Below, one piece after another: positions 15,710 through 22,516 of a stretch of DNA of 64,000 bases. The DNA comes from Nocardioides eburneiflavus (GTDB lineage: Bacteria; Actinomycetota; Actinomycetes; Propionibacteriales; Nocardioidaceae). The first letter of the stretch is position 1. Each line of letters opens with the position of its first letter. The notes below the pieces were generated by a model, which saw only the letters and a program-made list of their open reading frames with translations, was not told the origin of the DNA and made no database searches. The translations under genes and the position numbers were made by a program. The stretch is taken from NCBI RefSeq assembly GCF_004785795.1, contig NZ_SRRO01000001.1, forward strand, positions 2,852,001 to 2,916,000, in the 5' to 3' direction.

Positions 15710-17028
15710 TGACTTCCGGTGACAAGCAGCGCCCCCTCGGCGTGGCCGTGCTCGGCTGCGGCGCGGTCGGGTCGCAGGTGGTGCGCCTGCTGGCCGAGCA
15801 GCGCGACGACCTCGCCGCCCGGGTCGGTGCCCCGGTCGAGCTGGTGGGGGTCGCCGTACGCCGGCTCGACGCACCCCGCGACGTGCAGGTCCCCGACGGC
15901 CTGCTGACCACCGACGCGCACGGCCTGGTCGCCCGCGACGACGTCGACCTCGTCGTCGAGGTGATCGGCGGCATCGAGCCCGCCCGCTCGCTGATCCTCT
16001 CCGCGCTGGAGAACGGCGCGAGCGTCGTCACGGCCAACAAGGCGCTGCTCGCCGAGGACGGACCGACGCTCTTCGAGGCCGCCGCCAAGGCCGAGCGCGA
16101 CCTCTACTACGAGGCCGCCGTGGCCGGCGCCATCCCGATCCTGCGTCCGCTGCGCGAGTCGCTCGCCGGCGACAGGGTCACCCGCGTGCTCGGCATCGTC
16201 AACGGCACGACCAACTTCATCCTCGACAAGATGGACACCTCGGGGGCGGGCTTCTCCGAGGCCCTCGAGGAGGCGCAGGAGCTCGGCTACGCCGAGGCCG
16301 ACCCGACCGCGGACGTCGAGGGCTTCGACGCCGCCGCGAAGGCCGCGATCCTGGCCAGCCTGGCCTTCCACTCGCGCGTCACCGCCTCCGACGTCTACCG
16401 GGAGGGGATCTCGGAGGTCACCGCAGCCGACGTCGCCAGCGCCCGCGACATGGGGTCGGTCGTCAAGCTGCTCGCGATCTGCGAGCTGCGTCCCGGTCCC
16501 GACGGCCAGGACCAGGTCGCCGCCCGGGTGCACCCCGCGATGATCCCGCGGTCGCACCCGCTCGCCAGCGTCCGCGAGGCCTACAACGCCGTGTTCGTCG
16601 AGTCCGAGGCCGCCGGCCAGCTCATGTTCTACGGCCCCGGCGCGGGCGGCTCGCCCACCGCGAGCGCCGTGCTCGGCGACCTGGTGACCATCGCGCGCAA
16701 CCGCCTCGCGGAGACCCGCGGCGCGGGCGAGTCGGCCTACGCCGACCGGGCGGTCCAGCCGATGGGGGAGACGCGCACCCGCTACCACGTCGCGATCGAC
16801 GTCGACGACCGCGCGGGCGTGCTCGCGACGGTCGCCAACGCGTTCGCCGACCACGACGTGTCCATCCAGACGGTCCGCCAGGAGGGACGCGGAGCCGACG
16901 CCCAGCTCGTCGTCGTCTCGCACGCCGCACCCGACGCCGCCCTCAGCGCGACCGTCGACCAGCTGCGCAGCATGGACATCGTGCGCGAGGTCACCTCCGT
17001 GATGCGGGTCGAGGGCGGCGACGAATGA
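15709..17028 (+). CDS. hom: Homoserine dehydrogenase
   Basis: A 439-residue enzyme reducing aspartate semialdehyde to homoserine, the branch point toward threonine and methionine. The N-terminal nucleotide-binding motif is GCGAVGSQV (about residues 16-24). The catalytic domain carries [11 protein letters not shown] and the [17 protein letters not shown] segment. A C-terminal ACT domain ([16 protein letters not shown]) suggests allosteric feedback by threonine, the usual control in this family. It overlaps lysA upstream and thrC downstream (ATGA). Confidence 0.96.
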
Positions 17029-18095
17029 GCACCCACCAGTGGCGTGGCCTCATCGAGGAGTACCGCGCGCTCATCGACCTGCTGCCCGACGGCCTCGAGG
17101 CGGTGACGCTGCGCGAGGGCGGCACGCCCCTCGTGCACTCGGAGTGGCTCTCGTCCCTCACCGGCGGCCAGGTCTGGCTCAAGGTCGAGGGCGACAACCC
17201 GACCGGGTCCTTCAAGGACCGCGGCATGACCACGGCGATCTCGGTCGCCAAGCACGAGGGGGCGCAGGCCGTGGTCTGCGCCTCGACCGGCAACACGTCG
17301 GCGTCGATGGCGGCCTACGCCGCGAAGGCCGGCCTCAAGCCGCTGGTGCTCGTGCCGGAGGGCAAGATCGCCGCGGGCAAGATGGCCCAGGCCGTCGTGC
17401 ACGGCGCCCAGATCATCATGGTGCGCGGCAACTTCGACCACTGCCTGCAGATGGCCAAGGGCCTGGCCTGGGACTACCCCGTGGCGCTGGTCAACTCGGT
17501 CAACCCGGTCCGCCTCCAGGGCCAGAAGACCGCGGCCTTCGAGATCTGCGACTTCCTCGGCGACGCCCCCGACTACCACCTGCTGCCGGTGGGCAACGCC
17601 GGCAACATCTCGGCCTACTGGATGGGCTACGAGCAGTACGCCGACCTCGGCCGCGCGAGCAGGCGCCCCGTCATGCGGGGGTTCCAGGCCGAGGGCGCGT
17701 CGCCGCTCGTCACCGGCGAGCCCTTCCCGGACCCCGAGACCAAGGCGACCGCGATCCGCATCGGCAACCCCGCCTCGTGGAAGCTCGCCGAGGCGGCCGC
17801 CCACGAGTCGGGCGGTCGGTTCGCCGCGGTGACCGACGTCCAGATCCTCGCCGCGCAGGCCCAGCTGGCCCGGCACGACGGCGTCTTCGTCGAGCCGGCC
17901 TCGGCCGCCGGCATCGCCGGCCTGCTGTCGGAGCTCGCGGCAGGGGAGACCTACACCGGTGCGACGGTCGCCATCACGGTCACCGGCCACGGCCTCAAGG
18001 ACACCGCCACCGCGCTCGAGTCGTACGGTGACGTCGTCGACACGGTCGTGGACGCCGACGTGGCAGCCGCGGCCGCGGCCGCCGGTCTCGCCTGA
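17025..18095 (+). CDS. thrC: Threonine synthase
   Basis: A 356-residue PLP enzyme converting O-phosphohomoserine to threonine. The PLP lysine is in [10 protein letters not shown] (about residue 64), with the phosphate-binding GNAGN loop further on ([13 protein letters not shown]). The length fits the short class of bacterial threonine synthases. It starts inside the hom stop (ATGA) and ends three bases before thrB, so hom-thrC-thrB is one tightly coupled unit. Confidence 0.96.
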
Positions 18096-18098
18096 GAC

Positions 18099-18995
18099 AT
18101 GGCGACCTTCGTCGACGGGCCCGCCCGGGTCAGCGTCCCGGCCACGTCCGCCAACCTCGGCCCGGGGTTCGACGCCTTCGGCCTGGCGCTGTCGCTGCGC
18201 GACGAGCTCGAGGCCGAGGTGCTGACCGAGGGCCTGGTGGTCGACGTGGCGGGTGCCGGCGCCGACGGCGTGCCTCGCGACGAGACCCACCTCGTCGTCC
18301 GGGCGATGCGGGCCGCCTTCGAGCTCATGGGGGAGCAGCCGCCCGGACTGCGGCTGTCGTGCCGCAACGTCATCCCGCACGCGCGCGGCCTCGGGTCGTC
18401 CTCGGCGGCGATCGTCGCCGGTGTCGTGCTCGCGCGGGGCCTCGTCGCCGGTGGTCAGCTGCTCGCGTCCGACGAGGCCCTGTTCGACCTCGCGGCCGAC
18501 CTCGAGGGCCACCCCGACAACGTCGCCGCAGCGTTCTACGGCGGGTTCGTGATCTCCGGCCGCGAGGCGGACCGCTGGTTCGCGGTGCGCGCAGGCGTCG
18601 ACCCGAGGATCACGGCGGTCGTGTTCGTCCCGCCGGACGGCGTCGAGACCACGGTCGCCCGCGGCCTGCTGCCCGACCTCGTCCCGCACGCCGAGGCCGC
18701 CGCCAACTCCGGCCGCGCCGCGTTGCTGGTGGCCGCGATCACGGGACAGCCCGAGCACCTGCTCGCCGCGACCCGGGACTGGCTCCACCAGGACCAGCGA
18801 GAGCCGGCGATGCCGAAGACCCTGGAGCTCGTACGCTCGCTGCGTGCCGACGGCGTGCCCGCCGTCGTGTCGGGGGCCGGGCCCACCGTGCTGGCGTTCG
18901 GGTCGGCCGACACCACGGACCTGCTCGCCCGCTGCCCGCGCGGGTGGACGCCGCACGAGCTGTCGATCGACGTCGAGGGCGCGCGCCTCACCTGA
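18099..18995 (+). CDS. thrB: Homoserine kinase
   Basis: A 298-residue GHMP kinase phosphorylating homoserine with ATP, the step before threonine synthase. The N-terminal SANLGPGFDAFG segment and the ATP-binding loop ARGLGSSSAA (about residues 94-103) are intact, and the C-terminal SGAGPTVLAF motif is present. It closes the threonine operon; the next gene, rho, follows after a leader of almost 200 bases with its own promoter-like TAACCT at 19048-19053. Confidence 0.96.
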   Translation: MATFVDGPARVSVPATSANLGPGFDAFGLALSLRDELEAEVLTEGLVVDVAGAGADGVPRDETHLVVRAMRAAFELMGEQPPGLRLSCRNVIPHARGLGSSSAAIVAGVVLARGLVAGGQLLASDEALFDLAADLEGHPDNVAAAFYGGFVISGREADRWFAVRAGVDPRITAVVFVPPDGVETTVARGLLPDLVPHAEAAANSGRAALLVAAITGQPEHLLAATRDWLHQDQREPAMPKTLELVRSLRADGVPAVVSGAGPTVLAFGSADTTDLLARCPRGWTPHELSIDVEGARLT

Positions 18996-19188
18996 CCCGG
19001 TCGAGCGGCTCTCGGCACTGCTGGCTGTCGGCGGTCGACCTGCCTGCTAACCTGACCGCGCGCCGTTCGGCGTACCTGCCCGTCCCGGTCCTCCGGCATC
19101 CGCGAGGACTGCGTGCTCGGGCGACCACCATCCGCCTCGTAGGCCGCCCCGGGCGCCTCGCAGGCGACGCGACGTGCGAAGGATCCAC

Positions 19189-20973
19189 GTGACCGAGACC
19201 CCCTCGAAGCCTGCCAAGAAGGCCACCGCCAGGCCGGCCGGCCTCAGCTCGATGCTGCTGGCGGACCTCAAGTCGATGGCCGTCGGCCTCGGCATCTCCG
19301 GTGCCGGCTCGATGAAGAAGGCCCAGCTGGTCGACGCCATCAAGGCGACCCAGTCGGGCGGGCGGCCGGCAGAGGCGGAACCCGCCACGGCCCCGCGGCA
19401 GGAGACCGTGGCGGCGGACGCTCCGGCAGCCGGTGACGCACCCGCCGAGGTCCCGGCGCCCCGGACGACCGTCCGGACCCGGACCCGCAAGCAGCGCCAG
19501 GTCGAGCAGGCCGAGCAGAGGCAGGCCGAGCAGGAGCAGGCCGAGCCGAACCGGGCCGACCAGCAGGACGACCGCAAGCAGGACGACCAGCAGCAGGACC
19601 GCCAGCAGGGCCAGAAGGGCCAGAAGAACCAGAAGTCGTCGAAGGGCCAGCAGTCCTCGAAGGACGGCAACAAGCCAGACAAGCAGCAGCAGGACAAGCA
19701 GCAGCAGGACAAGCAGGGTCGCCAGAACCAGCAGAACCAGGCCCAGCAGGGCCAGAACCAGCAGAACCAGGCCCAGCAGAACCAGTTCGACGACGACGAG
19801 GACGGCGAGGGCGGCAGCCGCCGCAACCGCCGCCGTCGTGGCCGGGACCGCACCACGGTGCGCCAGGGCGGTCGCAACGAGCCCGACACCACGATCCTCG
19901 AGGACGACGTGCTGGTGCCGGCCGCCGGCATCCTCGACGTGCTGGACAACTGCGCGTTCGTGCGCACCTCTGGCTACCTGCCCGGTCCCGAGGACGTCTA
20001 CCTCTCGCTGTCGATGGTCCGGAAGTACCACCTGCGCCGGGGCGACGCCGTGGTCGGCCAGGTCCGCCAGCCGCGCGAGGGCGAGCGTCGCGAGAAGTTC
20101 AACCCGATGGTCCGCATCGACAGCGTGAACGGCACCGAGGCCGAGGGCGCCAAGGAGCGCCCGGAGTTCTCCGACGCGGTGCCGGTGCACCCGCACCAGC
20201 GGCTGCGCCTGGCCACCGACGACGCGAACCTGACCGGGAAGGTCATCGACATCGCCTCGCCGGTCGGCAAGGGCCAGCGTGGCCTGATCCTCACGCCGCC
20301 GCGTACGGGCGCGACCTCGCTGCTGCAGTCGATCGCCCAGGCGGTGACGACCAACAACCCCGAGTGCCACGTGATGGTGGTCCTCGTCGACGCGCGTCCT
20401 GAGGAGGTCACCGACTTCCAGCGTGCCGTCAAGGGCGAGGTCGTCGCCTCGACCTTCGACCGGCAGCCGGCCGACCACGCGCTGGTCGCGGAGCTGGCCA
20501 TCGAGCGGGCCAAGCGCCTGGTCGAGCTCGGCCACGACGTCGTCGTGCTGCTCGACTCGCTGACCCGCCTCGGCCGGGCCTACAACCTGGCCGCGCCGGC
20601 CAACGGTCGCGTGCTCGCCGGCATCGTGGACGCGTCCGCGGTGCACCCGACCAAGGAGTTCTTCGGCGCCGCCCGCAAGATCGAGGACGCGGGGTCGCTG
20701 ACGGTCCTGGCCACGGTCGCGGTGGGCACCGGTTCGGCGACGGACGAGTTCTTCCTCGAGGAGATCGCCGGCACCGAGAACTGGGAGCTGGCGCTCAGCG
20801 CGGAGCGGGCGGCCAAGGGCATCGTCCCGGCCGTCGACGTCGCCGCGTCGGGCACCCGCCACGAGGAGAGGCTGCTGGCACCTGCCGAGGGAGCGGTCGT
20901 CGGCGACATCCGCAAGCGGCTCGCCGCCGCGGACTCCCAGCAGGCCGTGCAGAAGGTCGTCGGCGGTCGCTGA
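19189..20973 (+). CDS. rho: Transcription termination factor Rho with degenerate ATPase site
   Basis: A 594-residue Rho at the conserved actinobacterial locus. Domains: Rho N-terminal helices (about 19-55), a long disordered Q/N/D/K/R-rich region (about 60-235), a cold-shock-like RNA-binding domain (about 240-312) and the RecA-like domain (about 330-585). Compared with E. coli Rho (recalled), the Walker A lysine is Ala375 (PPRTGATS for PPKAGKTM), catalytic Glu211 is Ala402 (VDARPEEV), and Arg347 and Arg353 are Ala538 and Gly544. Walker B Asp456, Arg460 and arginine finger Arg557 (SGTR) remain. The last 30 or so residues of E. coli Rho are missing. The frame is intact, so it is not an obvious pseudogene. 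GTG 19189 is preceded by AAGGA at 19179-19183. Confidence 0.93.
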   Translation: MTETPSKPAKKATARPAGLSSMLLADLKSMAVGLGISGAGSMKKAQLVDAIKATQSGGRPAEAEPATAPRQETVAADAPAAGDAPAEVPAPRTTVRTRTRKQRQVEQAEQRQAEQEQAEPNRADQQDDRKQDDQQQDRQQGQKGQKNQKSSKGQQSSKDGNKPDKQQQDKQQQDKQGRQNQQNQAQQGQNQQNQAQQNQFDDDEDGEGGSRRNRRRRGRDRTTVRQGGRNEPDTTILEDDVLVPAAGILDVLDNCAFVRTSGYLPGPEDVYLSLSMVRKYHLRRGDAVVGQVRQPREGERREKFNPMVRIDSVNGTEAEGAKERPEFSDAVPVHPHQRLRLATDDANLTGKVIDIASPVGKGQRGLILTPPRTGATSLLQSIAQAVTTNNPECHVMVVLVDARPEEVTDFQRAVKGEVVASTFDRQPADHALVAELAIERAKRLVELGHDVVVLLDSLTRLGRAYNLAAPANGRVLAGIVDASAVHPTKEFFGAARKIEDAGSLTVLATVAVGTGSATDEFFLEEIAGTENWELALSAERAAKGIVPAVDVAASGTRHEERLLAPAEGAVVGDIRKRLAAADSQQAVQKVVGGR

Positions 20974-21126: not shown

Positions 21127-21351
21127 ATGAAGAAGGACACCCACCCCGAGTACGTCGAGACCCAGGTGACCTGCACCTGCGGCGCGTCGTTCACCACCCG
21201 CAGCACCGCGACCTCCGGCTCGATCCACGCCGACGTCTGCTCGCAGTGCCACCCGTTCTACACCGGCAAGCAGAAGATCCTCGACACGGGCGGCCGCGTC
21301 GCCCGCTTCGAGTCCCGCTACGGCAAGAAGGCTGCTGCCGAGAGCAAGTAG
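21127..21351 (+). CDS. rpmE: 50S ribosomal protein L31, zinc-binding type
   Basis: A 74-residue ribosomal protein. The zinc ribbon cysteines are present as CTC (residues 16 and 18) and CSQC (38 and 41), followed by the family HPFYTGKQK segment and a basic tail. This is the Cys-containing form; low-zinc paralogues lack these residues. The ATG at 21127 is preceded by GAGAGGA. The gene keeps its usual place between rho and prfA. Confidence 0.97.
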
Positions 21352-21442: not shown

Positions 21443-22516
21443 ATGTTCGAGGCCGTCGAGGGCATGCGCGAGGAGCACGCCGAGCTCGAGCAGCGCCTGG
21501 CCCTGCCCGAGACGCACGCCGACCAGCGCCTGGCCAAGCAGCTCAACCAGAGGTACGCCGAGCTCACCGCCGTCGTGTCGACCTGGCAGGAGTGGCACCG
21601 GCTCGGCGACGACGTCGAGGCGGCGCGCGAGCTCGCTCCGGACGACCCTGCGTTCGCCAGGGAGGCCGAGGAGCTCGCGACCCGCCGCGAGGCCGTGGGG
21701 GAGCGCCTGCGCCGCCTGCTCGTGCCGCGGGACGCCGCCGACGGCAAGGACGCCCTGCTGGAGATCAAGTCCGGCGAGGGCGGCGAGGAGTCGGCACTCT
21801 TCGCCGGCGACCTGCTGCGGATGTACTCCCGGTACGCCGAGACCCGGGGCTGGAGCGTGGAGGTGCTCGACGCCACCGAGTCCGACCTCGGCGGCTACAA
21901 GTCCGTCACCGCGGCGGTCAAGGCGCGCGGCACGGTCGAGCCCGGCCAGGCGCCGTACGCCCTGCTCAAGTTCGAGGGCGGCGTGCACCGCGTGCAGCGC
22001 GTCCCGGTCACCGAGTCGCAGGGACGTGTCCACACCTCGGCCGCCGGCGTGCTCGTCTCGCCCGAGGCGGAGCCCGTCGACGTCACCATCGACGACAACG
22101 ACCTGCGCATCGACGTCTACCGCTCCAGCGGACCCGGCGGCCAGAGCGTCAACACGACCGACTCGGCCGTCCGCATCACCCACCTGCCCACCGGCATCGT
22201 GGCGAGCTGCCAGAACGAGAAGAGTCAGCTGCAGAACAAGGAGTCCGCGATGCGGATCCTGCGCTCGCGGCTGCTCCAGGCCGCGCAGGACGCTGCGGAC
22301 GCGGAGGCGAGCGACGCGCGGCGCTCGCAGGTGCGCACCGTGGACCGTTCCGAGCGGATCCGCACCTACAACTTCCCGGAGAACCGGATCTCCGACCACC
22401 GCACCGGCTACAAGGCCTACAACCTCGACCAGGTCCTCGACGGCGACCTCGCCCCGGTGCTGGACTCCTGCGTCGAGACCGACATGGCGGCCCGGCTCGC
22501 GGCGCTGGAGTCCTGA
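21443..22516 (+). CDS. prfA: Peptide chain release factor 1
   Basis: A 357-residue class I release factor recognising UAA and UAG. The codon-recognition tripeptide PVT (about residues 188-190, before ESQGRVHTS) identifies RF1 rather than RF2. The GGQ motif that enters the peptidyl transferase centre is at about 232-234 ([12 protein letters not shown]). AGGAG lies seven bases before the ATG. It is followed directly by prmC, which methylates the GGQ glutamine. Confidence 0.97.

Follow-up and report, generated by a model that had tools for sequence, protein, structure and literature searches.

Whether Rho must pull RNA, or whether binding and allostery can suffice to stop the polymerase, is debated (models are set out in PMC8964686). 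The question is raised in a natural form by the rho gene of Nocardioides eburneiflavus. This gene lies in the window analysed here (the whole stretch of 64,000 nucleotides), and its reading frame is open, but residues required for ATP binding and hydrolysis in E. coli Rho are replaced in its product. A sequence-only reading of the locus had proposed an ATPase-dead Rho that retains RNA binding. The features concerned are given below, with E. coli numbering for the residues replaced; the neighbouring genes carry the names that we take them to have from their sequence and order.

17025..18095, + strand: gene before thrB, presumably thrC
18099..18995, + strand: upstream neighbour of rho, presumably thrB
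19189..20973, + strand: rho, 594 aa, motor-degenerate, with a GTG start; an upstream GTG at 19174 is a possible alternative start
19243..19356, + strand: Rho_N domain, residues 19-56 (Pfam PF07498, 32.7 bits against a cut-off of 24.9)
19357..19896, + strand: Gln-rich, low-complexity N-terminal insertion, residues 57-236, with 42 Gln in 180
19924..20145, + strand: OB-fold RNA-binding domain (PF07497, 87.2 bits, above cut-off), in which the primary RNA site is largely retained
20296..20319, + strand: degenerate Walker A motif, PPRTGATS, with Ala375 for Lys184 and Arg372 for Lys181
20389..20397, + strand: DAR in place of DER, with Ala402 for the catalytic Glu211 and the Arg valve (Arg403) retained
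20554..20556, + strand: Walker B Asp456 (E. coli Asp265), retained in 205 of 205 complete genus rows
20593..20631, + strand: Q-loop, with Ile479 for Gly288
20725..20745, + strand: R-loop, with Ala517 for Lys326 (codon 20737-20739)
20800..20826, + strand: Ala538 for Arg347, Gly544 for Arg353 and Val546 for the adenine-stacking Phe355, by residue alignment
20857..20859, + strand: Arg finger Arg557 (E. coli Arg366), retained in 204 of 205 complete genus rows
20944..20973, + strand: shortened C-terminus, in which residue 585 is followed by nine residues and then TGA
21127..21351, + strand: downstream neighbour, presumably rpmE
21443..22516, + strand: downstream neighbour, presumably prfA

Direct reading of the DNA placed Arg372 (CGT, 20302-20304) at the position of Lys181, Ala375 (GCG, 20311-20313) at that of Lys184 and Ala402 (GCG, 20392-20394) at that of Glu211, and alignment with solved Rho chains, together with a table of residues, gave the replacements of Arg347 and Arg353. 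These five changes, and the survival of Asp456, Arg460 (E. coli Arg269) and Arg557, had been claimed from the sequence and are confirmed; the residue table adds the loss of Lys336 (Ala527) to those of Lys326, Phe355 and Gly288. Two further claims stood in part. The C-terminal tail, described as absent, is instead shortened, with 8-10 residues beyond window residue 585 in the 35 rows of the window's clade, compared with 29-36 in 71 rows in which every canonical residue is present. The RNA-binding core, described as remaining, is half intact: its primary site is mostly kept and its secondary, translocating site, which has lost Lys326 and the Q-loop Gly288, is damaged. Of nine primary-site residues mapped from a list that we assume to be the correct one, seven are as in E. 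coli in all 35 clade rows (L58, F64, R66, D78, Y80, E108 and R109; in the window L252, F257, R259, D269, Y271, E299 and R300). Residue 62 is Cys in 32 of these rows and Tyr in three, Tyr being the residue of the canonical rows, and Tyr110 is replaced by Phe throughout the clade, as it is in 72 of the 73 canonical rows.

By profile, the protein passes both domain cut-offs and that of NF006886, the PRK09376 Rho equivalog (434.5 bits, cut-off 315), and misses those of the TIGR00767 equivalog (479.3 bits, cut-off 509.45) and of NF041509, paralog_Rho2 (452.6 bits, cut-off 628); the latter is a short form of the same family, whereas no Rho besides the window gene was detected in the source genome. 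An AlphaFold monomer model of the 358-residue core, built from a 44-row alignment, reached a pLDDT of 90.7 and a pTM of 0.90. Like canonical Rho (TIGR00767, including the E. coli and M. tuberculosis proteins), the window's protein has Rho_N, an OB fold following the Gln-rich insertion, and a RecA-like core with the Walker B Asp, Arg valve and Arg finger, each of these three present in 35 of 35 clade members, and its gene lies near thrB, rpmE and prfA, as in its relatives. Unlike canonical Rho, it lacks the Walker A Lys, the catalytic Glu, the R-loop Lys, Arg347, Arg353, the adenine-stacking Phe and part of the C-terminal tail. M. tuberculosis Rho, also actinobacterial, shares the long N-terminal insertion and an altered R-loop lysine (Thr501 for Lys326), but it still has Lys359 of Walker A as well as Glu386, and it is presented as a motor driven by ATP (PMC8828861, PMC4499133); loss of the R-loop lysine alone therefore does not exclude motor activity. 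Most key Rho residues are conserved across more than 1200 species (PMC4499133).

How widely the altered residues are distributed was examined in 215 genomes of the genus, 212 of which had a Rho match at E <= 1e-30; the others, G048 (partial match only), G167 and G231, lie outside the row set. The 212 loci gave 211 Rho rows, there being none from the fetched stretch of G003 despite a match in the genome searches, and 205 rows were complete at the key columns after six were dropped (G228, G230, G116, G227, G221 and G237; at Lys184, G116 has Ala and G227 Thr). In G003 the genome search had matched a Rho core (G003:C1:2780631-2781686) that tblastn did not find again in L287, the stretch fetched for it, and L059 gave no single open frame. 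Other irregular loci, possibly reflecting assembly errors, were a rho matched in two frames in G217, one with a single in-frame TGA in G151, and the L090 protein, whose C-terminal residues are unalignable to other Rho, as if frameshifted. Lys184 has gone from 65 of the 205 complete rows (26 Ala, 24 Arg, 11 Thr, 2 Val, 1 Ile, 1 Gly) and Glu211 from 44 (21 Ala, 21 Thr, 1 Gln, 1 Val); both are missing in 43 and either in 66, and the 24 rows with Arg for Lys184 may be less severely altered than the remaining 41. All canonical residues are present in 73 rows. Arg212 and Asp265 are retained in all 205, and Arg366 and Thr185 in 204 each, the exception at Thr185 being Ser. The substitutions are thus not fixed across the genus or the Nocardioidaceae, a point the sequence-only reading had left for checking: Lys184 and Glu211 are both kept in 139 of the genus rows and in all 41 loci that could be read and whose titles do not name Nocardioides, these loci having been picked by similarity to the query.

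Within the genus, the window belongs to a group of 35 species with 78-100% core identity to its Rho. Position 184 is occupied by Ala in 26, Thr in 7 and Val in 2, position 211 by Thr in 21 and Ala in 14, and position 326 by Ala in 34 and Gln in one; Phe355 has become Val in 31, residue 320 is other than Leu in 34, and most or all members have lost Lys326, Lys336, Phe355, Arg347 and Arg353. By contrast with these losses, Arg at position 181, Thr185, Arg212, Asp265 and Arg366 are fixed. Sequencing error and chance are ruled out as the cause of the changes, since all 35 species lack both Lys184 and Glu211 and none has a stop within the matched rho frame. In a FastTree phylogeny of thrB, thrC, rpmE and prfA, from which Rho was excluded (197 taxa, including 7 outgroups), the 35 species form one clade (support 0.90) inside a clade of 44 tips (0.99), all of them without Lys184. 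If every replacement is counted as a loss, Lys184 disappeared in 13 maximal clades (13 parsimony changes) and Glu211 in 5 (4 changes). These counts are rough, since several deep branches have low support (as little as 0.33) and the tree represents one locus.

One way in which such a Rho could be tolerated, suggested in the sequence-only reading, is that termination is carried out by another Rho that is active, or by a mixed ring containing it. A genome from another family of the same order does carry a second, shorter Rho (G086:C106:142614-143624). However, searches of the source genome (2 contigs, 99.95% complete) with a Rho protein and the TIGR00767 profile found one Rho, the other hits being far weaker, at 33.9 bits or less for TIGR00767; two of the weak hits, about 29-32 kb into the window, are probably ATP synthase subunits, and one is a brief match in another place. 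A single Rho match was likewise obtained in every one of the 35 clade genomes. The second Rho was accordingly rejected, and this explanation is so improbable that it can practically be set aside.

A second explanation is that Rho is dispensable in the genus and the gene is slowly decaying towards loss, as would suit the repeated disappearance of Lys184 or Glu211 in favour of a mixture of replacement residues. Divergence was measured as the mean distance to three outgroup Rho in the 73 canonical, 97 intermediate and 35 clade rows. For the ATPase domain this rises from 0.148 through 0.299 to 0.378, whereas for the OB domain it is nearly flat (0.234, 0.245 and 0.253), as it is for thrB (0.428, 0.425 and 0.419) and for thrC, rpmE and prfA, some of which had fewer rows (for prfA 34, 65 and 34 rows, with 134 columns). 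Divergence therefore sits in the ATPase domain, not in the OB domain or the neighbouring genes. Pairwise dN/dS (NG86, pairs with dS of 0.15-1.0, which are not independent) was 0.147 for the ATPase domain, 0.051 for the OB domain, 0.159 for thrB and 0.231 for prfA in the clade; 0.123, 0.213, 0.329 and 0.391, respectively, in the canonical rows; and 0.434 for the ATPase domain, 0.228 for the OB domain and 0.371 for thrB in the intermediate rows.

The high ATPase value of the intermediate group is in line with decay. Relative to thrB, the clade's OB domain is more constrained than the canonical one and its ATPase domain less so (0.147/0.159 versus 0.123/0.329), the latter leaving room for relaxed selection, and a Rho match at E <= 1e-20 is missing from 23 of 398 genomes across the phylum. 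Against decay, the clade's own values are low in both domains, its frames are free of stops, and 145 of 256 ATPase columns and 63 of 77 OB columns are invariant in it (166 and 6 among the canonical rows, which form a deeper set with some gaps). A Rho match is missing from just two of the 215 genus genomes: G231, which is 77% complete, and G167, in which total loss was set aside as a likely missing contig, a close prfA match being missing as well (best 41%). The clade's ATPase domain thus underwent extensive change in the past and is now under purifying selection. The earlier claim that the pattern is not random decay is upheld by the intact frames and the clade's low ATPase dN/dS, and gradual loss of a dispensable gene is considered unlikely, though it deserves some weight.

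The losses also show a pattern in their order. Where positions 326 and 336 are both basic (98 rows), Lys184 is missing from none, and it is still present in 20 of the 77 rows with a basic residue at neither; among the 66 rows without Lys184 or Glu211, position 326 is basic in one (G033, where Glu211 is Ala) and position 336 in eight. This suggests that the lysines of the RNA loops, and RNA pulling with them, were lost first and the ATP pocket afterwards, as a tendency rather than the outcome of a formal test, the rows being related.

What the altered pocket might still do can be judged partly from laboratory mutants. The E211A change in E. coli Rho fully abolishes ATP hydrolysis and leaves ATP binding and oligomerisation unaffected; the matching change in M. 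tuberculosis Rho, E386A, behaves comparably and inhibits helicase activity and termination (PMC4499133). The same residue has become Ala in the window; however, each mutant carries one engineered change, whereas the window's Rho has undergone a natural loss of several residues that is common to many species. With Glu211 changed, Lys184 gone and, in most of the clade, the adenine-stacking Phe (a role described for Phe355 in PMC8828861) missing too, the protein probably does not hydrolyse ATP and would bind it weakly or not at all. Nucleotide binding could nevertheless be retained through the fixed Thr185, Arg212, Asp265 and Arg366. These four residues, together with the Arg fixed at position 181, are also what would favour a different or weak ATPase, in which Arg372 replaces the Walker A lysine and another residue polarises the water. 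Such an enzyme is improbable, given that Glu to Ala alone ends hydrolysis in E. coli Rho, with a comparable result in M. tuberculosis Rho (PMC4499133), and that Phe355, Lys326, Lys336, Arg347 and Arg353 have disappeared from most or all of the clade besides.

The interpretation to which we give slightly more belief than doubt is that the window's Rho, predicted to be unable to burn ATP, is likely a motor-free ring gripping nascent RNA through its mostly intact primary site. The ring would still assemble, and RNA would be held by it and not pulled; any effect on transcription would come from binding RNA and polymerase, along the route, stand-by or allosteric, that has been put forward for the E. 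coli protein, and not from translocation. An open Rho ring has been described as being recruited to polymerase, capturing RNA at its primary site and inactivating the polymerase (PMC11829017), and for the stand-by mode the general assumption is one of allosteric change rather than motor action (PMC8964686). The ATPase-dead, RNA-binding Rho proposed in the sequence-only reading is to this extent supported, as a prediction from the residue losses and the mostly conserved primary site. The looser constraint on the clade's ATPase domain relative to thrB lowers the probability of this interpretation a little, and the Cys at residue 62 of the primary site also speaks against it. The fuller scenario, in which a ring dismantled in order, loops before ATP pocket, still stops or polices transcription as a Rho acting without translocation, is advanced tentatively. 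Termination by M. tuberculosis Rho depends on a competent ATPase pocket, so that hydrolysis-free termination would run counter to the E386A result (PMC4499133).

Alternatively, the protein may have acquired a role unrelated to termination, for instance as an RNA chaperone or condensate scaffold, through its Gln-rich insertion and OB ring. Rho of C. botulinum is inactivated as amyloid, and phase separation raises the activity of B. thetaiotaomicron Rho (PMC11829017); the insertion in the clade is also rich in Gln and Asn (fraction 0.267, versus 0.214 in the canonical rows). Since the canonical rows of the genus carry a similar insertion (median length 209 versus 215), however, it is not tied to the loss of the motor, and a new role of this kind has a low probability.

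Genomic traces of altered termination were sought in two comparisons, both of them weak. Group means of purine bias and GC skew differed slightly between Rho groups, but a paired test at four-fold sites across the 13 loss clades was null: in 5 of 13 the skew was reduced (sign p 0.58), and in 6 of 13 the purine bias (p 1.0). Similarly, convergent gene ends, identified by a home-made gene caller in one 20-kb stretch per genome, had no excess of hairpins: the mean best value was -17.2 at 50 ends from 10 clade genomes and -16.8 at 64 ends from 10 canonical genomes (Mann-Whitney p 0.69), and hairpins followed by at least four T were present at 5 of 50 and 10 of 64 ends, respectively. The idea that lost Rho policing leaves its mark in purine bias or GC skew was not upheld, nor was that of stronger intrinsic terminators in the clade, and these tests thus give no genomic trace of changed termination in clade cells.

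Beyond the genus, a sweep of 398 genomes from the phylum gave matches to TIGR00767 at E <= 1e-20 in 375, of which 330 scored above the cut-off. Of 20 listed among the 23 genomes without a match (at least 95% complete), ten belong to family f28 and five to f52. When 31 low scorers were re-examined together with G167 and G231, 30 loci could be read, having been picked for low score and being roughly aligned; two of these are presumably flagellar-type ATPases, judging by motif, and 28 are Rho-like, 19 of them without Lys184 and 15 without Glu211, from which loss of motor residues seems to recur in the phylum. Some loci read outside the genus have features of their own. In L351 (G425, genus g11, of the same family) the Walker A Lys is Arg and the Arg finger Asn, and thrB, rpmE and prfA adjoin. 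The loci L367-L378, from families f49 and f69, encode very degenerate Rho-like proteins in which the profile matches begin at the N-terminal end; some keep RPEE, with Q- and R-loops unrecognisable in the rough alignment, and the Walker A motif contains GAT or GVT in four of the five f69 members, resembling the window clade.

In the open-licence literature, searched by titles and the starts of abstracts, no paper was found on a natural Rho without the Walker A lysine, and none combining Nocardioides with termination factor Rho; PMC13323073 gave no match on Actinobacteria, Walker or the rho gene. A genome with an annotated Rho may lack one that is driven by ATP, a caution for terminator prediction and for the use of Rho as a drug target; position 320, which lines the bicyclomycin cavity (PMC8828861), is other than Leu in nearly the whole clade. 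For the question of whether Rho must pull RNA, a genus whose sole detected Rho ranges, by species, from a full set of motor residues to a motor-less form provides a natural dissection series.
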